From positions 248,001 through 312,000 of the forward strand of contig NW_027461520.1 of the NCBI RefSeq assembly GCF_024713945.1: DNA of 64,000 bases, written 5' to 3'. The stretch's first letter is position 1. The number at the start of each line of letters is the position of its first letter. The notes under the pieces were generated by a model. That model saw nothing but the letters and a program-made list of their open reading frames with translations. It made no database searches and was not told where the DNA came from. The translations under genes were made by a program, and so were the position numbers. This DNA is from Dermatophagoides farinae. Lineage: Eukaryota; Arthropoda; Arachnida; Sarcoptiformes; Pyroglyphidae. This document shows positions 4,706-60,390 of this stretch, piece by piece.

Positions 4706-5681
4706 ATGAATTTATCAGGTTCATTTGTTGACGAAAATCCTCAATATGTAAGTTAACTGAATCACAGTTGTGTTTCAAAATAAAAAATATTTTTAGAAAA
4801 AATTTGAAAGTGCAAGAAGAGTAGCAATAAGTGAAGAATGCGGCATCGAAGAAGAAGATTTTGTTTATCCGGTATATAAGAAAACTGAGCAAGAACGAAT
4901 AGAGCTTGAGAAACTAATTTTAAATACATTTCCATGCAATACTGTAACTGCTGATAAAAGAGATATATTAATTGATGCGTTTGAGTCAATTAATTTTAAA
5001 AAAGATGATGTGCTGATGAAAGAAGGTGATTATGGAGATGCATTATTTATTATAGCAGAGGGAGAAGTCAGTGTTTTTAAAAATATCGATGGTGAAAACA
5101 AACTTGTAAACAAGATGTTTAAAGATAGCATTGTAGGTGAACTCGCATTACTATATTCTTCCCCTAGATTAGCTACAGTTATTGCAAGTGAAAATACCAG
5201 ATGCTGGAAATTGGAGCGACCTGTATTCCGTAAGTTAGTTAGGGAGTCAGTGGTGGAAAAAAATAAAAAATACATGGAATATCTTAACAAAATTGAGTTA
5301 CTTCAGCATCTTGATATATCGAAAAAAATACAGTTGACAGATGTATTGCACGAAGTATTTTTTGAACCCAATGCAATTATTATAAAAGAAGGTGACGTTG
5401 GAGATAAAATATATATGCTTATTAAAGGCAAAGCTAAAGCCCTCCGTCACGAAAACGGAAAAGAAGTTTTGTTGAAAGTATATAATGATTACGCATATTT
5501 CGGAGAACTAGCGTTATTGAACAACGAAAAAAGAAAGGCAACAGTTATAGCTGTCACCAAATGTCATTGTTTGTATTTAAAAATAAATGCTTTTTATAGA
5601 TTAACAGGCCCAGTTAAAAAAATTTTGAGAGAACGAGCAAAAATAATTTATAGCTCTAATGCTGAAGAATCTAGCATTTAA
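4706..5681 (+). CDS. PKAR: cAMP-dependent protein kinase regulatory subunit
   Basis: Two exons, 4706-4747 and 4797-5681, are separated by a 49-nt GTAAGT...TTTTAG intron and give 308 residues. Residues 21-26 read RRVAIS, a type-I pseudosubstrate (Ala at the phospho-acceptor position) that blocks the catalytic subunit until cAMP binds. Two cyclic-nucleotide domains follow. Each has a phosphate-binding cassette of the GELAL...R-ATV type, with the key Glu and Arg (E129 and R138 in the first). The family usually has about 370 residues because of an N-terminal dimerisation/docking domain. Only 20 residues precede the pseudosubstrate here, and the divergent neighbour leaves no room for another exon. 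It should bind cAMP and inhibit PKA, but probably does not dimerise or dock to AKAPs in the usual way. Confidence 0.9.
4748..4796 (+). other. Intron of PKA-R gene
   Basis: A 49-nt intron with GTAAGT donor and TTTTAG acceptor. Removing it joins an ATG exon of 14 codons in phase 0 to the exon carrying the pseudosubstrate and both cAMP domains. Confidence 0.85.
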
Positions 5682-5803
5682 TTTACAACTTTAAGTTGTT
5701 TGTTGATTAAAACTTCTTTTATTAAGCACGATATCTGTGCTTGGATAAACAAATAATATGATATGATTTCATTATAATTTTAGATATTTTCTTATAATTT
5801 TGA

Positions 5804-7150: not shown

Positions 7151-7188
7151 TTTTTATGATTTTATTAAAGAGAAAGTTATTTGTGCAA

Positions 7189-11654: not shown

Positions 11655-14442
11655 ATGAATAATGACTCGCAAAATACTTTTTATCAATAGTAAGTCATAA
11701 TTGGGATAAAGACGCAAACGACTTGGTATAATTATTTTCGAGCGTAAAAAAAACTGAAATTCAAAAGCAAAAGTTTTGAGTATTAGTTGGTTTTTTGCTT
11801 ATTATGATTATTGTTTAGTTTGTTGTCTTAACGGGTTTTGTTTGGGAAAACTTATTTTTTTTTAGTTTGAAAAATTTGACTATATTGGAGTTAAGGACTT
11901 TGTCGAGTTCACTTGGCATAAGAAAAAGCGGTAAAAAAAATGATCTAATAAAACGTATATTGCTTAAAGGTCATCTTTCGAGCAACCGCATTAAGTATTT
12001 GTTATCAAAAAACAAGCCATCATGGCAAGAATCGAAAGATGAAAACTCATCGTAAGTATAATTGTGATTTTTGGCTAAATAAATTTCTTTAGGTTAAATC
12101 CGAAAGAACTCTTGCATAAAGGAAAGTTGAAAACTTGCATTTGCTACGGCAGTTATCAGGCGATCGACGAATCACACATAATAAACTGTTCTTTGTGCAA
12201 CTGTGAGTATCACGCTTCGTGCGTCTGTTTTGACAGTAATTCGATCCAGTACAAATTTGTTTGCCCAATATGTCGGTTTCAAGATATCGACCCTTTTCAT
12301 CCCACTTCTAAGATATTGCAGATAGAAACTTTATGGCCTGCTTCGAAAACCAATAAATCTAGTAAAATTGCAAATGTAACAATAAAACAAAGTTTCCCGA
12401 ATCTTAAAGACCATAAACGCGTAGGTAATAAAGTTTTTCTTTACGGTTTACGTGTAGACAACTACGAAAAACCGTGGTCTTTATGTTGGCCGGAAACTAT
12501 CACAATTAATATAAATAATAATCTCGAGGTCGTTAAAAAACCTGAATACGATCATATAAGACGCGATTTGCCGATTGATTCAACGTTTTATCTATCTCAA
12601 GAGAAAATAAATTCAATCCAAATAAGTGCTACTACGACGGATTCAAGTACGTCGTGGATTTTGGCTTTAGTGCTGACTTCGTCATTTTCAGTTTCCGAGT
12701 TGTTTGATTTCGTTGTCAAAAATCGCAGTTTAGATTACGAAATTTGTGAAGAAATGGTTAAGAAATTTCTGGCAAAATTTTTCGGTTTGAGTGGCACTGC
12801 GAATCGCGCCGACGGCGTTAACATTGTAAGTACGTCTTTGTTGGTTTCGCTCAAGGATTCAATAAGTCTGGAAACAATACAAACACCGGTACGAGGTACC
12901 CAATGCGCGCATTTAGAATGCTTCGACCTACAAAATTACTTAGAAGCTAATTCTAAGGCAAGGTCTTTTGTAAACAGGTGGAAATGTATTATTTGCAATT
13001 GTTACACGCCCCCTAACAGCTTGATCGTTGATAATTATTTTAAGAAGCTACTTGAGGATAACGACTATCAATTAAAATCGATTGAGTTCTTCAACGACAA
13101 TTCATTTAAATTGATAAAATGCGAAGAGAATCTTATATTAGATGAATTTTCTAGCGAGGATGAGCGTGCTGAAAATTCTGATCAAGACCAGGAAAATAAC
13201 AGTGAGGGCGATTGTGCAGTCATTGATATTGCTGATGACGAAATCGCTACTGAACCAATAGCACCAAACTTGACTATTAATGAAAGTGCAAACGCACAAG
13301 GTCTTGAAAACGTCAGCAAAGAGGGCAACTTACCACTTGAAAATACATCGCAGCAGGCGGAAGATGAGAACTCAGATTCGGCGGAGTCGCTTGAAAAAAT
13401 GGTTTCTGCGGAACCAGGCGAAATAGAAGTATGTACAAACGTTCATAACAAAAACGAAGCTAAACAATCAGATCCAGTCGACGCTAAACGCAAGAAGACA
13501 AACAATGTGGTGTTTGCTTCTAACATGGCGACTAAACAAGTTCACCAGTTAAATCAAAACAGAGGAAATATGCCTAAGAACCGTCCACTAAATCGTCCCG
13601 TGAAAAACAATTTCATATCTAGACCTTATTACAACGAATTTGAAAATCCGCACCAAAACAATCAGGGTTTTCCTTACCCGCCGCCGCCTTCTATTCCAAT
13701 AAATCACATGGCGCCTACGATACAAATGGAAGCTCCTAATATGCAAAACTATACGCATTACTACATGACGAACCAAATGCCGCACGTGCCGCAGGTTTCT
13801 CAATTCAACAATTATCCTGTAAACAATTTCGCAAAAAAACAAGGCAATCAGCGCAAATGGAAAAACAAAAATAAAAATAGCAATAACTACCATAACCAGC
13901 GTTACTTATCTCCTGCAAACACTGGGAATTTACATCCTGGTCCAGTTAATAACTACTATTACGAAGAGAATTATCAGTATAAAGGGTATCCGGATCGCAA
14001 CGTCCTTGTTAATTATCAAAACGTCGTTCCGCCAATGTATTCAAGCGAAAATATGTACCACCAACCTATGCAGTATTCAAACGGAATGACCAATTACTGT
14101 AATGTTCCGTATTATTCAATGATGTACTACCCACCGTATATGCAGCATGGCTACCCAAACATGGCTAACTCGTCACAGTATGGCCAACTGCCGCCTGTTA
14201 CGAATTACGAAAAAATGAAAAATGAAAACCTGCAACTTAATGCAACAAATAAAGGCTGTGCTAGATACAAAAACAACTCTGAGCAAGAAGAAAAGTTTCA
14301 CGCTGGCCGAGGTTCTTTTAAAAATAATAACAAGGTCACGTATTTCAATTCAGACTTAGCTCTTTTGGCCAAAAAAAAGTATTCAACCAATCCTTTGCTT
14401 TCTCCTACAGAAAGCAACGATGATTTCATAGACAAAGTTTGA
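11655..14442 (+). CDS. SIZ/PIAS-type SUMO E3 ligase
   Basis: Three exons (11655-11689, 11866-12051, 12093-14442) are joined by 176-nt and 41-nt introns and encode 856 residues. The order is: a SAP DNA-binding helix-turn-helix (about 14-45, LRTLSSSLGIRKSGKK); a PHD finger (about 89-137, C-x-C, C-x2-C, H-x2-C, C-x2-C); a PINIT-like region; and an SP-RING (about 332-395, TPVRGTQCAHLECFD then WKCIICN). The SP-RING binds Ubc9. A Glu/Asp-rich stretch follows and may act as a SUMO-binding region. The last 350 residues are disordered and rich in Asn, Tyr, Pro and Met. SAP-PHD-PINIT-SP-RING is the order in plant SIZ1. The short first exon is inferred from phase and the ATG; without it the SAP exon has no start codon. 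Confidence 0.85.
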
Positions 14443-14613: not shown

Positions 14614-15096
14614 ATGGATACTTTGGAAAAGATAAAACGCGATATCAATGAAATACTTTTTAACTTAGAACAACAAAATATAGATGTGGCTGCAAAGTCG
14701 TATACAGACAAACATAACGTCGAAGCACAATTTAAGGCTGTTGATTTGCTAATTTTGGTTTTGTTTAAAGCGAATTTCTACAAAGTTCCACCGAGCAATC
14801 GAGATAACGTCTTAAACGACATTCTAGAGCGACGAAACCTGATTATTAATAAGTTTAACAAACTATTCTTAAATGTGCTGCCAAATTTGGATTTTCGCAT
14901 TCAACCGGAAAAAAATAGAGATGGTAGGTAATTAAAATAAAGTAAATATATCTTAGAAGCTGAAAATGACTTTTTGCTAGACGTCGCTAATAACCAAATA
15001 AAAACGATGTTTCAAGACGAAAACTTAATGTCAAACGACTTAAAAAAAATCAGCCAAAAATATCATAACATAGCTTCTACAATCACAAAAAGCTAA
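14614..15096 (+). CDS. Hypothetical helical protein, 149 aa
   Basis: Two exons, 14614-14923 and 14957-15096, are joined by a 33-nt intron (GTAGGT...CTTAG). A second nearby donor at 14928 would bring a stop codon into frame, so the first is preferred. The product is a soluble, mostly helical protein with an amphipathic N-terminal helix (MDTLEKIKRDINEILFNLEQ) and a hydrophobic core helix (AVDLLILVLFKANF). I do not recognise the family; the size and helical pattern recall small nuclear adaptor proteins, but there is no diagnostic motif. It ends 12 bases from the convergent beta-COP gene. Confidence 0.6.
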
Positions 15097-15108
15097 TTAG
15101 TTTAAACG

Positions 15109-19270: not shown

Positions 19271-20764
19271 ATGTTTGATATAAAGATTCTGGGATTTACT
19301 ATCGCAAATCATTGTTTTCAGCGCTTAAATCTTAAGTTGGTGAGCGATTACGTTAGAAATTTACAACATTATATCAATGAGATAAAAACTCTTCCTGCTT
19401 ATACTTTAGCTAATGAAGTTGAAGTTTTTGTTAATTCTTCAGATTATTTCAATGATTTACTTAACTCCATTTCAACCGCAAAAAAACGTGTTTGGATCGA
19501 ATCTTTTATTATGGATGCATCCAATGTTGCTCACATATTGGCTAAATACTTAATCGATGCTAAAAAGCGTGGAGTTGAAGTTAAAGTTTGCGTTGATGGA
19601 TTGGGGAAATATTATTCAAATAGAGCGTTCTTCAAATTGTTAGTCGATAATAACATTGCAGTCAGGTTTTGGAATCCTTGCTTTAAAAACAGGGTCGGTC
19701 CTTTATTCTATCGAAATCATCGAAAGCTTGTTTTATGTGATGACTCAGCTTATGTAAGTTCCGCTAATTTTGACAAACGATCGATCAGATTGCCTAAAGA
19801 GCTTGCAGTCGAGTTTGCTGATGAGTGGATTGGTCTTAATTCATCATCTAGTCTCAAAGCGAAATTTTTGAATTTTATCTTTAATTTTTTCCCAAGTCAA
19901 CAGGCAAACGATATAAATCATTCTGTCAAAGTAAATGGACGAAAATTTTGTACGGCAATTCGCAACGAAATGTTAATTACATTTAACCAATCAGTCGCGC
20001 ATAAAAATTCTAACAAAAATCGATTAAACGTGTCAAAAACAATTCCTGATCTTACAACGTCCTTGGTACGAATACCTAAAAATCGGGATAAATACTGTTT
20101 TAAAAACGTCGAAATAGCTTTACTACTTTCTAAAGGGTTGATTGAAAAACCATCAGTCTATTTCTCGACTATGAAATCAATAATGTTAAAAGCAAAATGT
20201 AATATCTTAATAGCTTCGAGTTATTTTCATCCACCAAAAAATTTGATTATTGCTTTAGAACGAAAGAGCAAAGAGAACACCAAAATTGAAATTTTTCTGT
20301 CGCGCAAGTCAGATGTTCCATTGGACACGTTTGCTACAAATTATTATTTAAGGCGGTTGAAGCCGCTTTCAAATATACAGTTGTATGGAATTTCAAGTCG
20401 GCATGTACATTGCAAAACAATTATTAGTGATAATGAAAAAGTTGTTTTAGGATCTCATAATATCGACTATTTAAGTTCTTATACCAATTGTGAAGCTGGT
20501 GTTTTAATTAACGATGCAAGAATAGCTAAAACACTTACTAGTTCAATTCGATCAAATAATCACTGTCCTATTAGTATTAACAATAGTTTGAAGGACAAGT
20601 TCCTCGAAAAATTAGCCCATAGTATTATTATTAATAATACTAGGAAAAAGTATTTGAATTTAAAAGATATTGGTCGAATTTGGTTTTCCAAAAAAGATAA
20701 ATTAGCTAGTTTTAAAAAGAGAAAAAATGATGTTTTTCAGACTTCTGGAATCTTTAGAATTTGA
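19271..20764 (+). CDS. Cardiolipin synthase-like phospholipase D protein
   Basis: 497 residues with two HKD active-site motifs of the phospholipase D superfamily: H-x-K-x4-D in RNHRKLVLCDDSAYVSSANF (about residue 155) and HVHCKTIISDNEKVVLGSHN (about 380). The N-terminal sequence AKKRVWIESFIMDAS...AKKRGVEVKVCVDGLG follows the bacterial cardiolipin synthase pattern, and GSHN supports transphosphatidylation rather than nuclease activity. The likely reaction makes cardiolipin in the mitochondrion. The first 20 residues could act in targeting, but no strong presequence is visible. A Lys-rich tail follows the second motif. Phosphatidylserine synthase or another PLD-family transferase cannot be excluded. 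Confidence 0.78.
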   Translation: MFDIKILGFTIANHCFQRLNLKLVSDYVRNLQHYINEIKTLPAYTLANEVEVFVNSSDYFNDLLNSISTAKKRVWIESFIMDASNVAHILAKYLIDAKKRGVEVKVCVDGLGKYYSNRAFFKLLVDNNIAVRFWNPCFKNRVGPLFYRNHRKLVLCDDSAYVSSANFDKRSIRLPKELAVEFADEWIGLNSSSSLKAKFLNFIFNFFPSQQANDINHSVKVNGRKFCTAIRNEMLITFNQSVAHKNSNKNRLNVSKTIPDLTTSLVRIPKNRDKYCFKNVEIALLLSKGLIEKPSVYFSTMKSIMLKAKCNILIASSYFHPPKNLIIALERKSKENTKIEIFLSRKSDVPLDTFATNYYLRRLKPLSNIQLYGISSRHVHCKTIISDNEKVVLGSHNIDYLSSYTNCEAGVLINDARIAKTLTSSIRSNNHCPISINNSLKDKFLEKLAHSIIINNTRKKYLNLKDIGRIWFSKKDKLASFKKRKNDVFQTSGIFRI

Positions 20765-20842: not shown

Positions 20843-21193
20843 TTATTTAACTACGAAGTTGTGAGATGTGAAACTTACTATTTGGTGTTGATCTACAGTT
20901 AAGTTACAGTACCACATTGCAAATTTCTCTAATGTTTTGCTAGGCTTTGTTTGGTATAATGTACAAGTCAAATTTTTTTTTTTACATAAAAAACTGATAA
21001 ACGGTAATGCTTTTGCCACTGTGACATCATCTAGATATCTTAGATTTAACGTAGCCCTCTTGTTTTGAACAAATTGATTGCGTATTTCATATTCGAATCG
21101 ACCTCTTGCTCGTGCTCTTCTTTCATCTAGTGAGCAATAAGGCATACCAACAGCTAAAATACTGGCGTATTCATTTTTGCTTAGAACATTCAT
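20843..21193 (-). CDS. Hypothetical protein, 116 aa
   Basis: An ATG-initiated minus-strand frame convergent with the PLD gene, about 80 bases apart. It has a basic patch (DERRARARGRFEYEI) in the first third and then a mixed hydrophobic region with three cysteines. No signal peptide, membrane segment or known domain is evident. Codon use and spacing suggest a real gene, but I assign no function. Confidence 0.55.
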   Translation of the reverse strand: MNVLSKNEYASILAVGMPYCSLDERRARARGRFEYEIRNQFVQNKRATLNLRYLDDVTVAKALPFISFLCKKKNLTCTLYQTKPSKTLEKFAMWYCNLTVDQHQIVSFTSHNFVVK

Positions 21194-28061: not shown

Positions 28062-28621
28062 TTAATTACGTAAATGCATTTCAAATAGATGGCAAAAAGT
28101 GGGTCCGAAGTAGGCTCCGTCTAATTTTTTAAATATATAAACATCACTTGTGTATATTTCTCTGCAATTTATACAATATCCATATGTAGCCGACTTGTAC
28201 GGCAAATTAGACTCCCCGTACGGTAGAATGTTTATAGCACATTTAGGACAGTGACCGAAAATGCCTGTTTTGAAAAGAGCTTCCATTTTGGCAAGTCCAG
28301 CGGGGGTGAGAATATAGCGTGCGTGAATAAGTCCGTAGAGTTCTTTGGAAGCGACGTCGTGTTCTTTGAGGAGACGGCTGGAGCTGCCATAGTTCCCGGC
28401 GCTTTTGCCTAGGATAATATTGAGGGCCTGTCTGTAATGGGGAATGGTTTGTGAGAGCCCGTACAGGTTGAATTCATCGGCGATGTATTTGGGATCAACG
28501 CGAATGAAACACTTGTAAGTGTTGCAGAAGTCTTCTATCCACGAGGTGTTCTAAAAGAAAGTGGGAGCGTTGTTTGGCTTACTTCTGTTTTAGATTCTGA
28601 GTTTGAAAAAATACTAACCAT
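28062..28621 (-). CDS. CSNK2B: Casein kinase 2 regulatory subunit beta
   Basis: Two exons, 28583-28621 and 28062-28550, are joined by a 32-nt intron (GTAAGC...TTTTAG) and give 175 residues. The start MVSIFSNSESKTE leads into TSWIEDFC and DEFNLYGLSQTIPHYRQAL, then ELYGLIHARYILTPAGLAKM. The zinc-ribbon region is GHCPKC...YCINC, and the protein ends DGAYFGPTFCHLF. These are CK2-beta landmarks; the subunit dimerises through the zinc ribbon and assembles the CK2 tetramer. Human CK2-beta has 215 residues. Here the acidic N-terminal loop is shorter, and the first zinc pair is C-x2-C rather than C-x4-C. It shares the higher G+C composition of phosphoglucomutase. Confidence 0.93.
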
Positions 28622-30011: not shown

Positions 30012-31936
30012 TTACGCATCACCTGAATCGAACATTTGCTTAACAAGAGACTTCATGTTAAAAGATGTCTGGTTTTGCGCGGATACGGATTTTTTATTGT
30101 TTTGAGTCGATACGTTGTGTAACGCGTTCAAAGACAGTGCAGAGTGATTAACGTTTAAATGTTCATTTTCCGTGCATATGTTGTTGCGTGTGTTTAATAG
30201 TTCGCCAACTACCAAGGACCACAACGAGTTAAGACGTTGATCAACCTTGGGTTTGGCAAAGTACCGCCACCAGTGGCTGCGTTCTACAATTTTGTTGTAG
30301 ACAGAGACAATGGTAGAAAAAATCGAATTTATGTCTTTTTTATATGTTTGTTGCTTCGCCATTAAGTTTTTTTCTTTTTCTGCTATTGCGGATTTTAATT
30401 TTTCTTCTTGTTCTTTAAGTCGTTGTAGTTCCTTGGTACGCGACTCGGAGATTCTGTTGATGTTATTGTTGATATTCGTAATAGATAAATTCAACGTGGA
30501 CACTTCGTTGTTAATTTCGGATTTAGCGGCGTTGAAGTTGCTGAATGTCGATTGCACTTGTTCGTTCAGCTCCGCACATTGTTTTTCTTTTTGCGAGAAC
30601 TGAGCTTCCATGCTTGCGATTTTGCGATCTATCTCGTTGTGTAGCGAGTTGAGTCTTTGCGAGTCCATTGTGATGAAATTTTTAAAAGCTTTGATATCTG
30701 GGTAGAGCGTGGTCTGAATGGAAAGTTTGTCGCTGTTCGAAATCAGAAACTTGTTGTTGAAAAATTTTTCAACATGCGGGTTTTGCAACTCCATTGAAGT
30801 GGAAAACAATTGACGATAAGAAAGGTACACATCGTTGAGTCTCGTCTTCAAAGTTTCAATCTCCTTGGTTTTGTAAGAAAGCTGATTTTGAATACCCAAT
30901 GATGATTCAGACACTTGTTTAATGTTGGCTTCGAGCTCGCGTAGTTTGTTGGAAAGTGTTTCGAAGTGATTAAATAAGTTTTGTTTTCGCGTAGCTTCTA
31001 CCTGGATCTCTTTCCATTGGTTGTTGTAACTAGACAGTTCGTTGTCCAACTGTTTTTTATCAACTTCTAAACCTTCAATTTCAGTTTTTACTTGATTAAT
31101 GTTCTCACTAATGCTCGCGATGGCTGCTTCAGAGTTCATGATGTCTTCCCTAATTTTTAGGATTTTTTTTTCCAAGTCAGCATATTGCTGGTTCAACGCT
31201 TCGAGTTGCTGTTTTAACTCCGTGCAGTCGACAGTGCTAGCTTTTTCGAGCTCTTTTGCTTCTCGAGATACGTAGTCAAAAAAATTGGATTTGTAAAAGT
31301 TGAGAAAGTATTCACAAAACGTGAACACCGCTTTTTTTTCTTTGTCGTACAAATTAGGATTGTCCTTGGTGCGTAAAAAACGAAACAGAATTCCTAGAAT
31401 AAACAAATAATCGTGTTCAAATATAGTAGCATCTTGACTAATGTAACGTGAAGAGATCTCGGGATCGAATACACACTTGTCTTGGCCGTTAAGAAACTCA
31501 ACTATGCTATTTAAAATCAATTTTTCCGAAGTTTTTTCTATTTGCACAGTTTCTTTACAAATTCGGTTGAGTTCTTGCTGAGCTACACTAGAAAATACAA
31601 ATGTTAAAATTTCTCTAACAATTCGGAACAGTTCGCTAACCCAAATAACGGCTAGTTTCAAATTATTGCTGTTGGAAGATTGAATCGATTGTAGTGGTCC
31701 CGGGTAAGAAAGAAGTTGCAAAAAAGAGCTTATTTCACTGTCAGAGTTAAAGGAAAACCCGATGTACTCTATTATATAGAACATACATTGTTTACACTTG
31801 TTGTAATCGTTCAAACTTTCATTAGTTACTTCGTTGTAACCAAGTTTTTGAATTAAACTAAAAAATTTCGAGAATAAAACACATACCTGGTAGTTTTGGA
31901 CGCTAATCTATCATTACTTTCTGTATTGTTGTTCAT
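30012..31936 (-). CDS. NDC80: Kinetochore protein NDC80
   Basis: Two exons, 31887-31936 and 30012-31857, are joined by a 29-nt intron (GTATGT...TTTTTTAG) and give 631 residues, close to human Hec1 (642). The first exon restores SLIQKLGYNEVTNESLND, matching the start of the NDC80 calponin-homology domain. That domain continues with SYPGPLQSIQSSNSNNLKLA and LAVIWVSELFRIV to about residue 200. The rest is a long coiled coil with a break near residue 390, where NDC80 has its loop. The protein binds spindle microtubules as part of the outer kinetochore. The basic N-terminal tail phosphorylated by Aurora B in animals is almost absent. Confidence 0.88.
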
Positions 31937-40571: not shown

Positions 40572-40934
40572 CACGTCTTTCAGGTTAGCAACAATTTTTG
40601 TTTTATTATCAAGTCCGATCAGTAAGTGTTAAATTCATTTAATCTTAATTCAGGCGGTTTTTTATCAAATACTACGTGCGAATTCTGTTGTAAGCCAACT
40701 TATCAAGGTTGTGAAAACAAAGCTTTTAGCGCAAATTCAAATCTAGGCGTTTGCAAATATGTAGACTGCGCTAATAAAACGAGAGGGTGTGGCTGGCTTA
40801 GAACTAGTCACGTGTCAGCAGTTTATTGTAGATCCTGTACAAATTTATATAAAAAAAATAATAATAATTTAATTGGGTGTGGCAATATTTTAACGACGGG
40901 ACAACTCTATTATGCAAACCTCGACAACACATGA
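40561..40934 (+). CDS. Small secreted cysteine-rich protein
   Basis: Two exons, 40561-40621 and 40654-40934, are joined by a 32-nt intron (GTAAGT...TTCAG) and give 113 residues. The first exon encodes a textbook signal peptide (MVFITSFRLATIFVLLSSPI), which ends just before GFLSNTTCEFCC. The mature part has 11 cysteines with C-x2-C-C, C-x4-C and C-x2-C spacings, plus a GCGWL segment. This suggests a disulphide-bonded extracellular or cyst-wall protein. I do not recognise the fold. The first exon overlaps the start of the APC1-like gene on the other strand by 11 bases. Confidence 0.7.
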
Positions 40935-41982: not shown

Positions 41983-42740
41983 ATGTATTTAATATGCATA
42001 GGTCCATTACTTTTATGGGTAAGTTAGTTCGAAAACGACGTGAATTTCAGTTTCATAAAAAATTGATAGTCAATTGCAAAGATGCGAATAGTATAAACGA
42101 ATTAACAAACGGTGGTTCGAGCTCGAATGACTATAATGACAGCGTACGTAAGCAAATCAAGGTTGAATTTTATTATGTAGCTCGTGCTTGATAATATGTC
42201 ATTTGACAACAGCATTATAGGAGAGAATGACGAGGTAAACTTTACTAAAGAAAAAACGTCAATTAATTGTATTAAAGATTTTAGGTAAGTTTTCCTAATT
42301 TTAAAATTGTGTTAGTGAAGACTGCCCGGAAGGGTTTATTTTTGTGAGCCCTGATATGTGTATGGAAAGTCTACCTATTGAAATAGTCAGTCGAAAAATA
42401 AAACGTACTATTAAGAAGCCTCTGACGTACGAAGAAAAATTAGCTGCTGAAAGTTTGCACAGCGTCAACTGGAAATGTAAGCCCGATTGCATTCCTGTAC
42501 CAAATACGTGTCCGATTTCATGGGCAATAAGCTATGCTGACGGCAAAGTGTATTGCGAAGCTCCTAAAGACGGTATTGTTAAGCACTGCAAAAATGTAAG
42601 TTTTTACGCCAACTAGTTATAGATTAAAGTCGAAATCACGAATTATAGTGATTTCGAGAAGTTTGAGCTAGCATACTAGTAAGTGTAGAAAATCAAGATG
42701 TTTTAGTTGCAAAAGCCACTTTATGTGTTTGGTTATTTGA
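41983..42740 (+). CDS. Secreted protein with two CPW-WPC domains
   Basis: Proposed exons are 41983-42018, 42051-42147, 42221-42284, 42316-42595, 42623-42678 and 42707-42740 (introns of 32, 73, 31, 27 and 28 nt), giving 188 residues. The hydrophobic start MYLICIGPLLLWF is a likely signal peptide. Domain 1 runs from NCIKDFSEDCPEGF to EEKLAAESLHSVNWKC. Domain 2 runs from CIPVPNTCPISW through CEAP and FEKFELAYYCKSHFMC. Each shows the CP-x2-W/F core and the terminal C-x5-C of CPW-WPC, known from apicomplexan surface proteins such as those of ookinetes. Reading the third and fourth introns restores the second domain's final cysteines. If the second intron is wrong, the gene starts at 42196 (152 residues, no signal). 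It ends 14 bases from the convergent RING gene. Confidence 0.75.
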
Positions 42741-42754: not shown

Positions 42755-43542
42755 TTAGATTATCTTACGTTTTACAGTGATTCGTTTTGGTTTCGGAGCA
42801 CTAAAAGGAGTACTAGGCGAAGACTCGGAGACTTTAGGCTCGACTTGTTTGGTACGTCGTTCGTCACGAAGTTTAAGAATTATGCGTTTGTAGTCCAACA
42901 GTTCTTTTTTCAAAATTTTCACAACAGAATGTAGATATCTGAAGGCGAAAAAGGTCGCGTCGGGCGAAGAACTATCAAGTTTGGACCTCAGCAACGTTTC
43001 GTCGGTTCCTTGAATCAGGCTAAAACGTTGTCCAAATAGGAACTTACTCGTTGATATTAGATAATTTTTTCGATACGTTGGTCAGTTCAGCTTCAAGTTT
43101 TTTTTTTTTATGGACGAGTTTATCGAAATTTTCCGATAATTCTTTGTTCAGTCTTGACGTTTTATCACGCTCAATTTCGGTTAATTTGAGTTTTTCAGCA
43201 AATTCAACATTTTCAGTTTTCAGCTTGTAGGCTTGCTTGGTTAAATTGCTAATTATAACTTGTTTGTCATCTTCGGCTGAAGAGTCATCCAAGCTCGTAA
43301 CGTGCTCAAAACTAATATGGACTTGAATGACCTTAGTGCTGGCCTTTCTGCAAAGAGGGCACGTGAAGTTGGCTTTACCTTTGACCTGAACCCATTCAAG
43401 CAAACTAGCATAATATAAAATAAATTACATACCATTTCGAGTGAAACAAATGTCCACAATTTGACGGAACAGCTTGTGGTTTGAGAAAGTGTAATGGTTC
43501 GTGACAAATTAAACACGGCGCTAGCAGGTAACTGAAAGACAT
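42755..43542 (-). CDS. TRAIP-like RING-finger E3 ubiquitin ligase
   Basis: Three exons (43433-43542, 43048-43404, 42755-43019) with two 28-nt introns give 243 residues. The N terminus MSFSYLLAPCLICHEPLHF begins a RING-H2: C-x2-C, then CGHLFHSKC and CPLCRK. The exon junction falls inside the C of HSKC, so the finger is visible only after splicing. Residues 80-160 are a Lys/Glu-rich coiled coil, as in TRAIP, which ubiquitinates replisomes and DNA-protein crosslinks. The C-terminal 70 residues are basic (KPKRITVKRK). Other RING-coiled-coil ligases are possible. Confidence 0.82.
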
Positions 43543-43720: not shown

Positions 43721-44018
43721 TCAGCTTTTAAACAAAAGAATGGCGTACTTGCCAGAATAAAAATAAATAAACCTCCTAGTCTCGTGAGACACGTACGAAC
43801 CAAAGTGTGTGCCTACGACGCAGTGCCACGAGGGTTCGTACAGCCGGTCAAATTCTTTTTTTATGAAGCTGGCAATATCTCTTTCTGTCAACATGCGTTT
43901 TAACGCTTTCTACAACTAATGGTTTACTCAAACTACTTACCCCAGCAATTTCAATAGCGTCTGAGACCATGTCATCCGGCATATCAGCAATTTTTATAAC
44001 ATGTTGTACTTCAGTCAT
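43721..44018 (-). CDS. DYNLL: Dynein light chain LC8
   Basis: Two exons, 43941-44018 and 43721-43909, are joined by a 31-nt intron (GTAAGT...TTGTAG) and give 88 residues. The sequence [47 protein letters not shown] and [16 protein letters not shown] aligns along its whole length with LC8 (89 residues). The homodimer binds short linear motifs in dynein intermediate chain and many other partners. The [11 protein letters not shown] stretch replaces the usual ALEKYNIEKD. Very firm call. Confidence 0.96.
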
Positions 44019-44551: not shown

Positions 44552-45224
44552 ATGAAATCGGGCGCAAATGAATTGTAAGTGTCTCTAATAAATTATTAGT
44601 AGTGATGTTTTATTCAAGATTTTATTAATAGGAGATTCAGGCGTAGGAAAAAGTAGTGTGATGATTAGATTCGTCGATGGTTGTTACAATTGTAACTTCA
44701 TGAGCACGATTGGCGTTGACTTCGTAAGTTCCCGTAGATAAAACGTTTAGAAAGTGAAATCAATGACGATTGACGACAAAGTGTTGAAACTTCATATTTG
44801 GGATACAGCGGGGCAGGAGAGATTCAAAACCGTGACCTCGTCTTATTATCGGGGAGCAAAAGGAGTGATAATAGTTTTCGATGTTTGTGACAAAGATTCG
44901 TTTGACCACGTCGTAACTTGGCTCGAAGACGTCAAAAAATACGCAGGCGAGAACATTATTTGTCTTTTAATTGGCAATAAATGTGATGAGCCAGAAGTAA
45001 GAATCATTTCGAAAACGGACGCAGAAGAGCTAGCTGCATTGTACAACATTCCGTACTTCGAAACAAGCGCTAAGACCGGCACGAACATCAATGAGGCTTT
45101 CGAACTGCTCGCACGAAACATGCTTGCAGACTCCAAATTGACTGATAACCGGAGTTCTAGATCTCCAATCGATGTTGACTTAGCTAAGAAAGAAACAAGT
45201 TATTCTTGTTGTAAATTTACGTAG
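44552..45224 (+). CDS. Rab-family small GTPase
   Basis: Three exons (44552-44574, 44603-44723, 44751-45224) with introns of 28 (or 25) and 27 nt give 205-206 residues. The G motifs are GDSGVGKS (P-loop), TIGVDF (switch I), WDTAGQERF (switch II), GNKCD and ETSAK. RabF motifs such as IGVDF and [10 protein letters not shown] confirm Rab. The C terminus SYSCCKFT is a CCxxx double-cysteine prenylation signal. [21 protein letters not shown] is closest to the Rab1/Rab8/Rab18 cluster of secretory Rabs, and I cannot choose among them. The first intron has two usable acceptors three bases apart, so isoforms may differ by one Ser. Confidence 0.93.
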
Positions 45225-45798: not shown

Positions 45799-47374
45799 CT
45801 ATAGTTCTCCAAAATAAATTTTATAATTCTCACTGCTAATAAATTCGCTTAATGTATTGTAATTGAACGACCATTCAAAAGCAGAACTAATATATTTTTT
45901 TTTCGTTAACTTACATAAGAGTTCCGTAGTTTGGCTTAGTTGGCACAATTATCTGAATTGGCCAGTAACTCGGCAGCAAAGACCTCAATTCAATTAATAA
46001 GCGTTCAATTAAACCCGGTGAATCCACCAAGCCGCCCTTTAAACAAATGTTTCTTGCCATTTCTTGTTGCAAAAGAGGCGGAAGCGCTTGAATACACTGA
46101 ATAATCATCTCAACAAGTCCTTGTGCAGGTTCAATGACGGAGTTATTTTTATTTAGAGACGAATCGAATGCAGTATTAGCTAAGCAAAGCCCGAGTTCTC
46201 TCAAGTTGTTGTTAGTGCGTAAATTGTTGTGAGATGTTTTAACTCTGGGGTTGAACAATTGTTCGCCTAATGTGATACACTCTGGGCCAAGCATTACTAC
46301 ATTTGTCATCGCAGTTTTATCATCATATTCCGTGTTCATCGTCTGTAGATTGTAAATGAACAAGTTTTTCATGTCTTTAGGAATGAATGAATGTTTTTTG
46401 TTGATCATTTCTCTGCGCTCGTCACAAAGCATATTATTTTCTATAACATAGTTTAAACTTACCCGGATACATTTTTTCATAATATCGTAAATTACAAAAT
46501 CGAAAGAATGGATATTAGCTGATCTATAGTTTACGACTTCTCTAAACTCACTAAAAAGAGCCAAACCTCCGTTCATGTTTTTAAAAATTGCAGGCTCGAT
46601 AATCACGCTGTCGTAAGTAGGAACAACTTTGGTCGACACATTACCTATATCGACGATAAGTTTGAAAGGGCTGTCCAAAATGAGTTTTGACTCTTGATTA
46701 TCAAGACAAAGATAGTGAGCAACATAATCAATAGAATGCTTACTCATGTGTTCAGATTTCACATTATATCTCGTATACTTAAGGTTTCCATTATCTTGGC
46801 AAAATTTTAGAAAACATTTATGCGCTTTTTCTGCATGATGATCGTGATAAACCTTAGAATCATTTACAGTTGACTCTTCGTATGTACTTTTGCAAATAGA
46901 AGAAGGAAATCCCCACGATGAAATCATAAACTCAGACACAACTCTGCAGGCAACAACATTTTTTTGAAATATGAGAGTTTTAACAATGGTTTTAGATATT
47001 TCCATCGGAGTACTATGAGTTTCAACAATTGTAACAATTAAATCTTTCCACAAATTTGTTGTTCTCTTAAGTAACTGTTGTAATCCATGTTCCCAAATCA
47101 ATATCTGAAGCTCCACATCAGTAATAACACCAGCAACCATCGGAGAGTCTAGAATATAACCCAACCTAGCTTATTTTTGTGGTTCAAACTTACTTTAATT
47201 GCAATATTTTTTTATCAGTTAATATAAAAGTCTTATTACTCGATCTCAAACGAACTCTAAAATGCGGTGCTGCATACAAACATACAGAAAATTAGGATAC
47301 TCTAACACTGACAAGGTATTTTCCTCTAGCATCATTTTTATTGAAAAAGAACCATTGTCAATTACAATCCTCAT
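45799..47374 (-). CDS. ARP6: Actin-related protein ARP6 (SWR1 complex)
   Basis: Four exons (47286-47374, 47194-47256, 45915-47165, 45799-45886) with introns of 29, 28 and 28 nt give 496 residues. Exon 1 supplies MRIVIDNGSFSIKMML, the phosphate-1 loop of an actin fold. Exon 2 gives the PNFLVRLRSSNKTFI segment matching ARP6 (family pattern: VIPNCQFRSK). The phosphate-2 loop is LIVDIGNVSTKVVPTY and the adenosine motif is LKGGLVDSPGL. The last exon gives the ARP6-type tail after NYGTLI (SAFEWSFNYNTL). ARP6 is a SWR1/SRCAP subunit needed to deposit H2A.Z. Nucleotide-loop glycines are degenerate, as in other nuclear ARPs. Human ARP6 is about 396 residues; the extra length is polar insertions. Confidence 0.8.
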
Positions 47375-50899: not shown

Positions 50900-51601
50900 A
50901 TGCAATGCGATAATGTAATTTGGGATTGTTGTGGAAAGCTGTTTTGCTCTTATAAGTCCAAGTAAGTTGTGTACAACGTAACGAAATTCAGGTTCAAAAC
51001 AACAGTACTATGTAAAAACAAGTACAATGTAACAGGGCTTTGCACTAAGTCCAACTGCCCTTTAGCTAATGGATACTATGCAACAATTATAGAAGATAAT
51101 GAAGAATGTTATCTTTACCTGAAAACACCAGAAAGAGCCAACACTCCAGCTAAAATGTGGGAAAAAATCAAACTTGACACAAACACAGTAGAGGCCTTCA
51201 AACAGATTGACCGATCGATGAAAAACGTGTATAAAGAATATTTAATCCAGCGATGTAAACGCAGATTGTGTCGTATTCGCGAATACTTACAAAAATCGCG
51301 GGTACTCGCAGAAAAAGAACGTCCAGTGCTTGTTACAGAGTCGAAAAAACTAGCGAAGAGAGAAAGTTCACGAGAAATTAAAGCGCTTCGGGCTGCGAAA
51401 ATCACCACTAATTTAGAGCAAGAACTGGTCAAACGACTTAAATCTGGTTACTATTCAGAAATTTATAACTTTAATAAAGCTCAATTTGACGAAGTTCTCG
51501 ACGAAGCGAACGATCAAAACGACATGTTGGAGGATCTTGAAGCTGAAGAATTTTCAGAAGATGAAATACTTGAAGAAAATATTGAAATTGAGGACTTGTG
51601 A
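50900..51601 (+). CDS. MAK16: Ribosome biogenesis protein MAK16
   Basis: Two exons, 50900-50961 and 50992-51601, are joined by a 30-nt intron (GTAAGT...TTCAG) and give 223 residues. The first exon restores the diagnostic start MQCDNVIWDCCGKLFCSYKS. FKTTVLCKNKYNVTGLC, SNCPLANGYYATI, CYLYLKTPERANTPAKMWE and ERLKSGYYSEIYNF equivalents follow. MAK16 is a nucleolar factor for 60S subunit maturation, working with RPF1 and binding 25S/28S rRNA. The C-terminal 40 residues are very acidic (EDLEAEEFSEDEILEENIE), as in the family. Four cysteines form the zinc-binding pattern. Confidence 0.95.
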
Positions 51602-51617
51602 AGATTCAGTACAGTCA

Positions 51618-51934
51618 TCACGTCAAAGAGTTGAAACTCTTTGCGAACTCTTCAACTAAAGAGTTTATTTCTAATAGCTGTTGAAACGTGGTTTTATATT
51701 CGGCAACTGTAGATCCTGACAGTTCCCTGACCATGTTGTATTTATCATCGTGGTCGCCGATAATATTGCTAACATTTACTGGATTAACAATAAAATTTGA
51801 ATTTTTTTGTATGCACATGTAAATTTCATCGAGTTCTTTATTTATGATATCGATGTTTGCTAAATAGAATTAAATGAAATCGACTTACATCCCATCGCTC
51901 TGATGGATTCATATGTTTCAATACTATCACTCAT
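51618..51934 (-). CDS. Hypothetical coiled-coil protein, 95 aa
   Basis: Two exons, 51889-51934 and 51618-51859, are joined by a 29-nt intron (GTAAGT...ATTTAG) and give 95 residues. The start MSDSIETYESIRAMG leads into a helix (NIDIINKELDEIYMCIQKN). After a short loop, a second helix ends FQQLLEINSLVEEFAKSFNS. A two-helix coiled-coil subunit of a small complex (BLOC- or dynactin-like) would fit, but there is no diagnostic motif. Its stop lies 16 bases from that of MAK16. Confidence 0.6.
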
Positions 51935-53256: not shown

Positions 53257-54822
53257 ATGTTACAACCAGTCTCTTCTCATATTAAAACACAGAATAATGT
53301 ATATTCGATTTTAGGTATGTAAAATCGTATAAATATTGTAGCTTCTAACTTAAGAGGCGGGATAGGTTTTAAAAACCAGCTGCCTTGGAAAATTAAAAAA
53401 GACCTGCAGTTTTTTCAATTCATAACGACGAACTACCAAAAAAAAAACTGGAAAAATACTTTGATTTTGGGAGCTAATACTTTAGCTTCGCTCCCAAGTC
53501 AAATAAACGACAGATCTATCAAAGTTCTATCTCAAAAAAAAAAAGGACAGAATTTCTACTCGTCAATTCCAAACTTGTTATTTGAGAACGATAATTCAAC
53601 TCATTTTGTTTGTGGTGGAGCTTCCATATATGACGCGTTTCACAAACTAAAAATACCAAGATTAGTTTTTTGGACTAGAGTGAATTCTAGTAACCCAACC
53701 GATACAAAGGTTGATTTAACTGAAATGTTGAGAAACTACAGAGTTGTTGCTCTTACTAAAACTGCAAAAGACAATAACATTCTTTATGACCATTGTGTGT
53801 TAGCTAACAAATCTTTATCTTCGTTTGAGTTGTCGAAAGAGTTATCAAATATTAGAAAGTTAAAGTATTTCAATCGAACTAAAACTAACGACTCATCATA
53901 CGAAAATTTAGGTGACTCTAAACCATTTCAAAATTATCCCGATCCGAGTTTATTACAACACGAGGAGTTCCAATATTTAAAACACGCTAACGATATTTTA
54001 AAAACAGGTTCGAGATCTAATAACCGTACTGGGATAGATACATTGATGAAGTTTGGACTAGTGATGCGTTACGACTTAACGACTTCTTTTCCATTACTAA
54101 CTACTAAAAAAGTTTTTTGGAACGGAATTGTTAAGGAATTGCTATGGTTCCTTAGGGGTCAAACTGATTCAAAAATTTTAGAGCGAGATAATGTCAATAT
54201 TTGGAAAGATAACGCTTCGAAGGAATTCTTGGAAAAAAGAGGACTCAAGAACTACCAGGAAGGAGACCTAGGTCCCATTTACGGCTTTCAATGGAGACAC
54301 TTTGGAGCTGATTATAAAAACTGTCACACGGATTATTCCAACAAAGGTATTGATCAGATCAAAAACTTAATCGAAATGATCAAAAAAGATCCCACATCCC
54401 GTCGGCTTATTGTTTCAGCTTGGAATCCCATGGCAATCGACAAAATGGCGCTTCCGCCGTGCCATGTATTGTCGCAATTTCATGTAGATGCGGCCAAAAA
54501 AGAAATCTCATGCGCATTGTATCAAAGAAGCGGGGATTGGGGTTTAGGTGTTCCATTTAACATCGCATCATACGCACTACTTTGTCATATTATTGGAAAA
54601 CTCACTGGTTACAAACCAAAAGAGCTTGTTCATTTTGTGGCGAACGCGCATATTTACGCGAACCACGAAGATTCGATTCGATCACAGTGCAATAAAGTAC
54701 CGAACCCATTTCCAGAAATCCAAATCAATCACATTGACGACATTGCCGATATTACTAGTAACGATATTAAATTGCGTAATTACGTGCCGAAGAAAGCGAT
54801 AAAAATGATTTTTGTTGTATAA
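53257..54822 (+). CDS. DHFR-TS: Bifunctional dihydrofolate reductase-thymidylate synthase
   Basis: Two exons, 53257-53314 and 53342-54822, are joined by a 27-nt intron (GTATGT...TTGTAG) and give 512 residues. Splicing joins NVYSIL to ASNLRGGIGFKNQLPWK and thereby completes the first DHFR strand; the unspliced frame hits a stop. The DHFR domain (to about 190) has LPWKIKKD (catalytic acid), LGANTLASLP and GGASIYDAF. A short junction leads to the TS domain (about 230-512) with RTGIDTLMKFG, FPLLTTKKVFW, the nucleophile C393 in PPCHVLSQF, the YQRSGDWGLGVPFN loop and HIYANH. The fused enzyme makes dTMP and recycles folate. It is typical of apicomplexans, kinetoplastids and plants and is the antifolate drug target. 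Confidence 0.96.
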
Positions 54823-57048: not shown

Positions 57049-57813
57049 TTACTTTGAATAGGCTGAATCGAGAGCGTCGGTGTAAAGTTTTTTTTTAAAG
57101 TAGCCGCTTCGAAGTAATATATCATTTTCGTTAATTTCCATTATGTCAAGAAGTGTAAACAAGTCACCCGATACTTCGTCAATTGATACCCCGCTACGAT
57201 ACTTATTATCAATGATGTGCAATCGAGCAAATAATTGAAACGTGAATCTAGAGACAATAGCTTTTATTGCATCAGCCAATTCTAAATAGAAGTCCTGATG
57301 ATACTGGATTATTTCTATTTTTTTAACATCTACCTGTTCTATGATTTCGCTTAGCCCGCCGATTTTTCCAACTTCTTCTTCTTCAGTCCCAGAGCGTTTA
57401 ATAGGTGGGTTTACTATGATTTGCGTTTGGTTGGGATGATTGAACAATTTTTCTCTTTTAATCTCGTTTTTAACCAATCGTTTAATTAACATATCGGCTT
57501 GAGTTTGAGTTGAGATTGCTCGCTCCAAAACTTTGTCTTGTTTCTTTAGGGTTTCGTTAATATGTTTGATGTCATACTCAGTATCAGAACCTGATTCATG
57601 AGACGTGTTACTCGAATCAGACGGTTCTCCTATTTTTTCTACGCTTTTATTGATATGGTTTCCGTCATATCCATGTGAATAATGAAACGAAACGAGTGGT
57701 ACTAAAGACGGAGGTTCTTTTAGTTCGATTCCAGTTTCCTTTTTAGGGACCGAGCTATTCTTGTCATCTGTACAAAATACCAGTCCTAGTCCGATGAACA
57801 CTAAACTATACAT
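57049..57813 (-). CDS. Putative secreted protein, 254 aa
   Basis: Starts MYSLVFIGLGLVFCTDDKNS, a short hydrophobic signal-like segment with a likely cleavage before TDD. Residues 20-90 are Ser/Gly/His-rich and acidic. Then comes a helical region with a poly-Glu patch (SGTEEEEVGKIGG) and a longer amphipathic helix near 175-210 (LELADAIKAIVSRFTFQLF). No cysteines occur after the signal, so it is not a disulphide-rich surface protein. The family is unknown; a secreted or dense-granule-like protein is possible but unproven. Confidence 0.55.
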   Translation of the reverse strand: MYSLVFIGLGLVFCTDDKNSSVPKKETGIELKEPPSLVPLVSFHYSHGYDGNHINKSVEKIGEPSDSSNTSHESGSDTEYDIKHINETLKKQDKVLERAISTQTQADMLIKRLVKNEIKREKLFNHPNQTQIIVNPPIKRSGTEEEEVGKIGGLSEIIEQVDVKKIEIIQYHQDFYLELADAIKAIVSRFTFQLFARLHIIDNKYRSGVSIDEVSGDLFTLLDIMEINENDILLRSGYFKKKLYTDALDSAYSK

Positions 57814-57895
57814 GTGTTATAAATCTGTTCTCCAAGTTCAATTATTGAAGAATATACACGAAAAAAGTTAATCTAAATAATAGACAATTATATAT

Positions 57896-60390
57896 TTATA
57901 AAATTCCATTAGTGAACCACTGGTAGTTGTCGTACTGTGATGAACGCCAGTTTAAAATAGAATTTTTGATCAATAGATCAATATTGGATAAACACTAAAA
58001 AGGATAGCGTTACAAAAACTTACGTCACCTGTAGTCTGATTGAGAAATAATCTTTTTTCCATAAGTTTGATCACAGTCGCAGGACTATGATTGAAACACG
58101 AAAGTTTTTCCACTAAAAAAATTACTATTATGCTAAAACGTACACCCAAGCATCATCTTCACCATAAGCAACAAGTGTTGAGCATTTTTCCTCATTTCGA
58201 CAAATCCTTTGAAAATTAATTCTTTAAACAAGTCAAACCCTGCTGAGTTGACCCCGCCCATAACGTCTAATATTTCGCTTGTCAGCTTGAACGGCGCAGT
58301 CTCAAAATTTACGAAACCGGGAGAACTGTAAAAGATATAACTATAGTCTATATGTATAACGCTTCCACTTTTGGTTAATAATATATTACCATTGTGACGA
58401 TCCTTGACTGCACATAAATACGACAGAAGAGAATAAGCAGCGTGAGACAGGATAAACGATGTTCTGGCTTCCTGTATTGTATCAGCAAAAGCCAGATTGA
58501 AAACTTCAGCAATGCTTGTTACTTTTAATTTTTGCTTTAGCGCGTCAAAAGACTGTGTATTTTCAAAATATTGAATTAAGCCACAGTTATTGTTAAAGAC
58601 GAGGATATCGCTATTTATTATTTTTAAAGGTAGATTGGCGGTTTGAAAAATCTCGTTGAGAATACTAATTAATTGAGATACAATTTTTTCTTGTCTAATA
58701 TCATCATTAGATTTAACAATGTACGCTACGAGTTTCCATGAATGATAATTTTTGTAAATACTTTGGTTTCTAATTTTTTCCGTAAGTTTGTTCCAGTCAG
58801 CCGGCCATAAAGCTTTACGAAGCTCTGGAGCATTTTGTTTTTTAAGATAGTTAGTACCTTTTAAATATTTGCTGAGGTCTGTGTCCAGATAAGCGTTATT
58901 TTTTACTAAGTTATAGACATCGGGTATTCGGTTCATGACAAAAGGAACTTCTAACGAAGTCAGTTTGGGTTCACCTGTTTCTTCGTTTTTCTTGTTTAAC
59001 CAAGCAACAAGCGTTTGTAGAATTTTGAATTTTTGTATTGTAGGGGCTAAGTCGGTCTTTTCCGATTTATTAAACGTATTTAATAAATTCTCAAGCTGTT
59101 GAATATCTTGATTAACTTTAAATTCTTTTTGTTTGAGTAACCTGTTTTCAAACACGTTGACACGTTTGGAAGTTTCGTTATCGTAAATAATTTCGTTTAA
59201 ATTTACCAGCTCAAAAATTATCAAAATTGGGTTGCGTTTCTTGGAGGAAAAAAAATTGGATTCGTCAAATTGAGCAGAAACAATAGAAAGCAGATCATCG
59301 TTATTACTTTTGAATATAGGTCTAATTTTGTTATTCAGCGTAAGTGATAACCGACCCGAGTTGTTGTATAACAAAAATCTATTTAAGGGCAAACTAATTC
59401 CATTAATTTTTTGAAGAACAGGGTTTGAAACACGAAAATAGTTATAAAAGAACAGCCAAGTGTCGAGCAGGTACAGACTAGTAGATAAGATATACTGCTT
59501 TTCGTATTTAGTTTGACAGTGAGAAAGCACTTCTGTAATTAGAATGAGGTACTTGACAAATTTATCGATTGTGTCAAACTGATTGCATCGTTCTAATTTT
59601 TGTAAATATAACATATCGTATTCGTTATTGTTTTGCAAATAATTGTGTACTTGTACAGAGAAGTAGAATTCGGTGTTCAGCAACCTGAAACATGTAGGAA
59701 CTTTTTGTTTTTTAGAGAGCAGATGAATGAACTGGGGAAAGAATTTATTCAAAAGAATCTTATACCCCCCTCTAATTGACTTGCTATTTGACTCATTAGT
59801 AGCAAAAAACTGCTTGCCTTGTGTACTATTATCAAGTGGGGTTAAATTTTCATGACTTCGTGATTTCTTGATGTTTGGATCTGGAGTAAGTTCGTGGCTT
59901 ACATTAGTTTCGCTGTCATTAAAAGAATCGGGAAGAGTTTTTCGATTAGTCGAAATTATATTGTTTACACATCTCATTAATACGGTTTCAGACAAAGCTT
60001 CTGCAAATTTATCATAGCTCGACCCTGCATCGTTGGAGCAAGCATCAAAGTACCAATAGAAAAGTAACGCGTTAAAAGTACTAGCCTCGCAAATTTCTAA
60101 AAGTTGAACTTTAAGCGTCGAGTTTTTTGTAGTTAAAAGCAAAACACACAATTGAGGGAAATAAAAACGGATTTCTTGTAAACTTCGTGTTTTTAATAGA
60201 CTATACAACGAATCTGATTTTTCGTCATTACTCAAATGCAAATAATATAAAAACCCTTCGATATCGTTATTAATAGAAGTCATATTTGAAACATCTAAAA
60301 ATAAGTTAACGCCATACAAAAACTGACGCTCAAAAATGTATACTTACTATTGTTTTGTATGCCGTTGGTTAGATCATCATATTCATGCAT
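57896..60390 (-). CDS. PI4KB: Phosphatidylinositol 4-kinase beta (PI4KB/Pik1)
   Basis: Four exons (60348-60390, 58144-60294, 58024-58112, 57896-57994) with introns of 53, 31 and 29 nt give 793 residues. The two last exons restore the family tail: FNHSPATVIKLMEKRLFLN and YDNYQWFTNGIL (YDGFQYLTNGIM in animals). A helical lipid-kinase-unique region lies near residues 20-110. The catalytic domain has VAYIVKSNDDIRQE (ATP lysine), the loop VKDRHNGNILL and FETAPFKLT. The metal motif reads HIDYSYIF instead of HIDFGF. It makes PI4P at the Golgi; this kinase is the target of imidazopyrazine-type antimalarials in Plasmodium. Confidence 0.92.

Follow-up and report, generated by a model that had tools for sequence, protein, structure and literature searches.

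Ultra-short introns of about 28 nucleotides on contigs of probable apicomplexan origin in a published Dermatophagoides farinae assembly

Introns clustered near 28 nucleotides (nt) are described for the marine eugregarine Porospora cf. gigantea, whose A and B genomes both have a median intron length of 28 (27-30) and a mode of 28, a class of about 25-30 base pairs (bp) that makes up 71-72% of all introns, a conserved A lying 6 bp upstream of the acceptor, and a GC content of 54.3% (PMC9250747). The table of that study gives medians of 95 for Gregarina niphandrodes, 65 for Cryptosporidium parvum, 467 for Toxoplasma and 140 for Plasmodium falciparum, and its text mentions 20-bp introns in Babesia microti (PMC9250747). 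Even shorter introns are reported from Stentor coeruleus, at 15-16 nt, where most introns of 15 nt have their branch A at nucleotide 10 (PMC9505925), and introns of about 25 bp from the ciliates Paramecium and Nyctotherus; in Paramecium, an effect linking lengths divisible by three to in-frame stops is also reported (PMC5014332). Here, we analyze a stretch of 64,000 nt (the window) from the assembly GCF_024713945.1 of the mite Dermatophagoides farinae, comprising positions 248,001 to 312,000 of contig NW_027461520.1 (C17 in our numbering of the 22 contigs, C1 to C22), for which a preliminary description had proposed a population of introns mostly 27-33 nt long.

We consider it very probable that these are U2-type introns of about 28 nt belonging to an apicomplexan that lives in or on D. 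farinae, the DNA of which was co-assembled with that of the mite as the non-chromosomal contigs C11-C21, including C17.

Predicted intron lengths and splice sites

A two-strand gene finder was applied to C17:200001-319858 (119,858 bp; the window is C17:248001-312000), with codon usage trained on long open reading frames (ORFs), introns of 15-400 nt allowed under a flat length prior, and bare GT/AG seeds iterated until convergence; the GT..AG ends were imposed and the remaining splice consensus was learnt from the data. This flat-prior run predicted 38 introns, 22 of them 27-33 nt long, with 28 nt (n = 7) and 29 nt (n = 6) as the commonest lengths; in the window, it placed 20 introns, 12 within the same range. 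Ten decoy pairs of donor and acceptor dinucleotides returned 24-31 'introns' each, with no more than 3-5 in the fullest 7-nt band. The tight 27-33 nt class of the preliminary description is confirmed at the sequence level. Seven of the ten introns named there were recovered by the flat-prior run, and all ten, at the lengths given, by a second, length-preferring run. This second run serves as annotation and is no independent evidence on intron length; it placed 36 of 49 introns (21 of 28 in the window) within 25-34 nt, the counts of 28, 49 and 36 still containing doubtful introns where their length fits. Longer introns of 49, 53 and 67 nt, and probably also of 41 and 176 nt, were predicted by the same run.

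The trained model was then applied to 138,464 bp of mite contigs (L045 was left out of the run on mite and other cobiont contigs), where it returned 32 introns, 1 of them within 25-34 nt; at a lower intron cost there were 41 introns, again with 1 in that range. As the mite contigs lack the short class under the same model, the method itself does not generate it, and the two genomes differ sharply. The D. farinae mite contigs have an intron class of their own, 17 of their 32 predicted introns being 51-70 nt long.

The anatomy of the splice sites was taken from the 36 short introns (25-34 nt) of the length-preferring run, with doubtful ones kept. Their donors begin with GTA in 35 cases and carry A at +3 in 35, A at +4 in 26, G at +5 in 33 and T at +6 in 33, and their acceptors are TAG in 30 and CAG in 4, in agreement with the GTAAGT donors and TTTAG or CAG acceptors noted beforehand. 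With this extended GTAAGT-like donor consensus, and with decoy pairs that yield no size class, the predicted introns fit the U2-type spliceosomal kind. Phases 2, 1 and 0 are represented by 15, 12 and 9 introns, and in 17 of the 36 the intron interrupts the first quarter of the coding sequence. Most lengths (26 of 36) are not multiples of three, again as first described; of the remaining 10, 9 contain an in-frame stop, which is not claimed as selection because the finder reads stop-free introns of such lengths as coding.

The class extends beyond C17. A scan of the whole 22-contig, 62,435,336-base assembly with the pattern GTAAGTTN{8,38}TTTTAG gave 188 matches, 64 on C1-C10 (1.09/Mb) and 124 on C11-C21 (34.5/Mb), a 32-fold difference in density. 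The length histogram covers all 64 matches on C1-C10 and, of the 124 on C11-C21, the 36 listed for C11-C14: among the latter, 23 fall within 27-33 nt, including 12 of exactly 28 nt, compared with 18 and 2 of the 64 on C1-C10, where the largest bin is 33 nt (n = 8; Fisher p = 0.0005 for the 27-33 nt share).

Upstream of the acceptor, A is commonest at -12 (24/36) and -11 (25/36), and T prevails from -8 to -3; position -6 is T in 24 introns and A in 6, with A at -7 in 10 and at -8 in 8. Base profiles were also drawn from 22 of the 36 listed C11-C14 scan matches (lengths 28-31, the other 14 being excluded): all 22 have an A within -12 to -10, compared with 7 of the 18 mite matches in the 27-33 nt range, and over positions -13 to -9 the fraction of A is 0.57 as against 0.26. 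A branch-motif search returned a weak A-rich motif, with a log-likelihood of 35.2 compared with 10.3-15.1 in five shuffles that do not keep positional composition; as the motif is weak, we claim an A-rich zone and not a motif. This zone, from -13 to -9, most likely holds the branch adenosine; were it placed near -11, the loop of the lariat would comprise some 17 nt.

Source of contigs C11-C21

Contigs C1-C10 sum to 58,827,282 bp and C11-C21 to 3,593,788 bp, or 5.8% of the assembly. Another D. farinae assembly is given as 58,776,842 bp, close to the C1-C10 sum (PMC11074847). Cytochrome P450 domains gave 79 reported matches, all listed ones being on C1-C8. AP2 domains gave four, those on C19, C16 and C14 over the cut-off and that on C11 below it, with none on C1-C10, and alveolin gave one, on C14. 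Two functions are present twice, once on each side: the PROCN domain of Prp8 on C7 and C14, and ribosomal protein S8 on C4 and C17. The C14 match to Prp8 (C14:94631-95839, minus strand) sits in one uninterrupted frame of 2341 codons.

Base composition divides the contigs in the same way. A 4-mer model trained on C17 versus C1 assigned to the C17 class every one of ten 2-kb samples taken across C11-C16 and C18-C21, at 16.6 to 42.8 nats/kb (held-out C17, 17.0 to 45.7); samples of C9, of C10 and of eight P450 loci fell with the mite, at -3.8 to -32.0 (held-out C1, -17.6 to -55.5). The remaining contig, C22 (14,266 bp), was also positive (12.7); it is an AT-rich mitochondrion, in which a frame reads by eye as arthropod mitochondrial nad5, and is beyond the judgement of a two-class model.

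The combination of AP2, alveolin (inner membrane complex, IMC), CPW_WPC and fused DHFR-TS marks Apicomplexa, its single members occurring more widely. All four were found, AP2 and alveolin on C11-C21 and CPW_WPC and the fused DHFR-TS in the window, the GC content of which is 33%. The spliced protein of the CPW_WPC gene matches its domain at 32.0 bits (cut-off, 23). The best structural matches of the DHFR-TS are 3dl6, 3dl5, 2oip and 3hj3 (372.4-377.9 bits), ahead of 4eil (372.0) and 1qzf (371.5) by a small margin; we take 4eil to be from Toxoplasma and the other five to be from Cryptosporidium hominis. The three domains and the DHFR-TS ranking favor the apicomplexan source that the preliminary description had proposed, and the window most likely derives from an apicomplexan cobiont of the mite and not from mite DNA.

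That this cobiont is a gregarine is plausible on circumstantial grounds, namely its arthropod host, its Porospora-like intron class and the gregarine 18S sequence reported from another psoroptidian mite, Caparinia (PMC6321676). Parasite scaffolds in a published mite assembly seem to be unreported: among the literature matches listed, none was found to describe an apicomplexan in an assembly of D. farinae, a word search of the main text of the assembly paper gave no 'Apicomplexa' (PMC11074847), and the main text of a study surveying animal assemblies for apicomplexan contamination gave neither 'Dermatophagoides' nor 'mite' (PMC5244568).

Together, these observations suggest the following arrangement. 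The introns would belong to a compact, AT-rich apicomplexan genome, and each would be recognized over its whole length: a strong GTAAGT donor, read by U1/U6, would be followed about 17 nt further on by the A-rich zone with its likely branch adenosine, and then by a short T run and TAG. Splicing would be carried out by the spliceosome of the cobiont itself, whose Prp8 would be the one encoded on C14.

Genes and junctions in the window

Predicted introns of the window are collected in Table 1. Removal of the introns gives ungapped alignments to solved homologues through the junctions of the MAK16, dynein light chain and Rab1-like proteins, and Pfam scores rise relative to the main exon frame in seven of the eight genes compared, a comparison that excluded the gene labeled NDC80. 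A gain is found for the Ras domain of the Rab1-like protein (198.7 bits spliced, 142.4 for exon 3 alone), dynein light chain (118.4 versus 93.0 for the main exon), the L28e domain of MAK16 (106.3 versus 101.1 for the exon-2 frame) and the DHFR_1 domain of DHFR-TS (61.8 versus 57.4 when exon 2 is scored by itself, with no effect on the TS domain). In the RING-finger gene, the spliced protein matches zf-RING_2 at 36.0 bits and the following exon alone has no RING match. CK2-beta shows no gain (152.1 versus 152.5 bits), its domain beginning after the junction; the flat-prior run gave this gene a 235-nt intron with the same acceptor. Predictors blind to such introns would be expected to truncate proteins, as the preliminary description warned.

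Table 1. Predicted introns in the window. Positions count from the first base of the window.
Gene and feature	Position	Strand	Length (nt)	Remarks
CPW_WPC-domain gene	42015..42616	+		introns 42144-42180 (37 nt) and 42285-42315 (31 nt); flat-prior run
Rab1-like, intron 1	44575..44602	+	28	acceptor 3 nt upstream would make 25 nt
Rab1-like, intron 2	44724..44750	+	27	alignment ungapped over junction
MAK16	50962..50991	+	30	ungapped to Mak16 through junction
Dynein light chain	43910..43940	-	31	87 residues ungapped to solved dynein light chain
ARP6, intron 1	47257..47285	-	29	length-preferring run
ARP6, intron 2	47166..47193	-	28	63-nt exon separates introns 1 and 2
ARP6, intron 3	45887..45914	-	28	near 3' end; both runs
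DHFR-TS	53315..53341	+	27	both runs
RING-finger (TRAIP-like), intron 1	43405..43432	-	28	splits RING; both runs
RING-finger (TRAIP-like), intron 2	43020..43047	-	28	outside RING; both runs
CK2-beta	28551..28582	-	32	length-preferring run only
Coiled-coil gene (earlier label NDC80)	31858..31886	-	29	both runs
PI4K-beta-like, 5' intron	60295..60347	-	53	beyond short class; length-preferring run
PI4K-beta-like, 3' intron	58113..58143	-	31	both runs
PI4K-beta-like, last intron	57995..58023	-	29	both runs
Small protein gene	51860..51888	-	29	no Pfam match; both runs
Small gene	14924..14956	+	33	Pfam match sub-threshold only; both runs
cNMP-binding (PKA-R-like)	4748..4796	+	49	beyond short class; both runs

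In ARP6, the best solved match is Actin-related protein 6, and splicing raises the Actin domain match (3-474) from 72.6 bits for the main exon to 87.1; in the comparison with the solved structure, the N-terminal stretch over the first two junctions is weak by itself, at just 7.1 bits. A 120-nt ARP6 intron proposed by the flat-prior run was rejected, being the first two short introns merged with the exon between them. In the PI4K-beta-like gene, removal of the two 3' introns lets the C-terminus align, with small gaps, to the final residue of solved PI4K beta, and the domain score is 117.9 bits spliced versus 114.8, a pair that also differs at the N-terminal end. A 305-nt 'intron' of the flat-prior run (60295-60599) is false, as it fuses an intact, intronless RPS15A gene into PI4K. 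The 3' introns ascribed to ARP6 and PI4K in the preliminary description are supported in both genes; its NDC80 label is not supported, no match in its favor being found, and we refer to that gene by its coiled coil.

Both candidate acceptors of the first Rab1-like intron are in frame. The finder picked the 25-nt version, and the 28-nt version, the sole one compared, aligns without gaps to Rab-1A over residues 3-170; acceptors three bases apart may allow NAGNAG-like alternative splicing. The domains of the cNMP-binding gene lie downstream of its junction. Five introns predicted by the length-preferring run only, all at gene ends, are doubtful (20650-20705, 20851-20878, 42596-42622, 42679-42706 and 45199-45224); the third and fourth of these were placed in the CPW_WPC-domain gene. 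An Rfam search of the window at gathering thresholds returned nothing.

Two further loci were noted. An ORF at 40560-40934 (plus strand) encodes a secreted-looking, cysteine-rich protein, for which a Pfam search found no match; by eye, it has a 32-nt GTAAGT..CAG segment (40622-40653) just after the apparent signal peptide. A PIAS/Siz-like gene at 11655-14442 (plus strand), with a MIZ domain and a SAP domain under the cut-off, has candidate introns of 176 and 41 nt, which makes it probable that the short class is accompanied by longer introns.

Alternative explanations and comparison with known systems

Several points weigh against an apicomplexan cobiont with a short-intron class throughout C11-C21. 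The published account states that contamination was removed, and its 21 scaffolds anchored on 10 pseudochromosomes fit poorly with C11-C21 as foreign, unplaced contigs (PMC11074847). U2 small nuclear RNA was not found on C11-C21, its three copies all being on C6, which an incomplete cobiont genome could explain. From 24 kb of other cobiont contigs, the model predicted just 2 introns (30 and 224 nt) at the standard cost and 3 (30, 186 and 224 nt) at the lower cost, too few to test anything. The finder's acceptor profile spans -12 to +1, so that the A/T pattern on C17 is partly self-reinforced; the C11-C14 matches are independent of that profile, yet were selected for TTTTAG. Finally, a reversed control pattern was matched 866 times on each strand across the entire assembly, and raw motif counts alone prove nothing; as this control was not split by contig, the contrast between contigs is unaffected.

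The alternative that fares best accepts real apicomplexan introns and holds the 28-nt class to be convergent with that of Porospora, through compaction to the floor set by the spliceosome, as in Babesia microti and ciliates. We regard this as nearly an even call. The GC content of 33% against 54.3% in Porospora points that way, as do the median of 95 nt in Gregarina niphandrodes, which is also a gregarine (PMC9250747), and the lack of a conserved A at -6 (6/36). On the other side, the mode is the same and the share is similar, 36 of 49 in the length-preferring run against 71-72%. Tentatively, and with rather less confidence, we raise the bolder possibility that C11-C21 represent 3.6 Mb of the genome of an undescribed apicomplexan that infects dust mites and is probably a gregarine, and that its 28-nt introns have a common origin with those of Porospora and a branch point about five bases further upstream.

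It is improbable that the cobiont is instead a ciliate, or another alveolate, with ultra-short introns like those of Paramecium. Alveolins are alveolate-wide, and the intron lengths of Paramecium and Nyctotherus come close; the window has, however, long frames that stay open under the standard code, each of the three stop codons serving as a terminator, AP2 domains are present along with CPW_WPC, described as a Plasmodium falciparum domain, and the top DHFR-TS structures are apicomplexan. More improbable still is that the segments are assembly indels or frameshifts that mimic introns in long-read contigs. Lengths that are not multiples of three in 26 of 36 cases, and the PacBio basis of the published assembly (PMC11074847), would suit such errors, but these would not explain why decoy dinucleotides yield no size class, why the segments have GTAAGT-like donors and T-rich acceptors, why their removal gives ungapped homology in three genes, or why mite contigs of the same assembly lack the class. 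Genuine mite introns are the least credible source: although the sequences share one assembly, from which contamination is stated to have been removed and whose numbers of scaffolds and contigs imply that C11-C21 were retained by its authors (PMC11074847), the introns that the same model predicts on mite contigs are mostly 51-70 nt long, C11-C21 carry AP2, alveolin and a second copy of Prp8, CPW_WPC is in the window, the composition of C11-C21 groups with C17, and the other 58.8-Mb mite assembly about equals C1-C10.

A parasite appears to be the source of about 3.6 Mb (5.8%) of a D. farinae assembly published at chromosome level. Gene sets drawn from that assembly may carry parasite genes under the name of the mite, which is relevant to allergen and comparative work, and C11-C21 offer free genome data for an undersampled parasite group. 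With a class of about 28 nt in both a GC-rich marine gregarine and an AT-rich mite apicomplexan, one can now ask whether such a class comes by descent or is an end point that compaction has reached repeatedly, and introns this small raise the question of where a branch point can be placed in a small lariat. Were the shared origin true, the class would be an ancient trait of a gregarine subclade, independent of composition despite a GC gap of 20 points, with an evolvable branch geometry.

Comparison with Paramecium and Nyctotherus, which have ultra-short introns only, of about 25 nt (PMC5014332), upholds the resemblance to ciliates drawn in the preliminary description with respect to size and in nothing else, the standard code and apicomplexan-type domains setting the cobiont apart. 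Stentor likewise has a tight class, a fixed branch zone and no strong branch consensus, but its introns are half as long (PMC9505925). The 28-nt class is not at the physical minimum, near which the preliminary description had placed it. Nor is it without precedent among apicomplexans with published gene models, given the introns of Porospora and Babesia microti (PMC9250747). The genome of the gregarine Ophryocystis elektroscirrha, AT-rich (27% GC) and 8.6 Mb in size, is a possible further comparison (PMC10210345).

Porospora is among the closest known systems: it too is a gene-dense apicomplexan parasite of an arthropod, with its own donor and acceptor consensus and a dominant class with a mode of 28, most of its introns being 25-30 nt, as 22 of 38 are 27-33 nt and 28 nt is commonest here. 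It differs in its lobster host, its higher GC content and its conserved A at -6, a position that is mostly T in the short introns on C17, where A is enriched at -13 to -9 and a counting offset of a base or two would not reconcile the two. Babesia microti, a piroplasm of vertebrates and ticks, is likewise an apicomplexan with a very short class and a candidate branch A near the acceptor, and differs in its intron length of about 20 nt. The class of about 28 nt is known from one apicomplexan genus, and the organism behind C11-C21 would be a further case: an AT-rich apicomplexan in which an A-rich stretch at -13 to -9, the likely site of the branch point, takes the place of the fixed A at -6.

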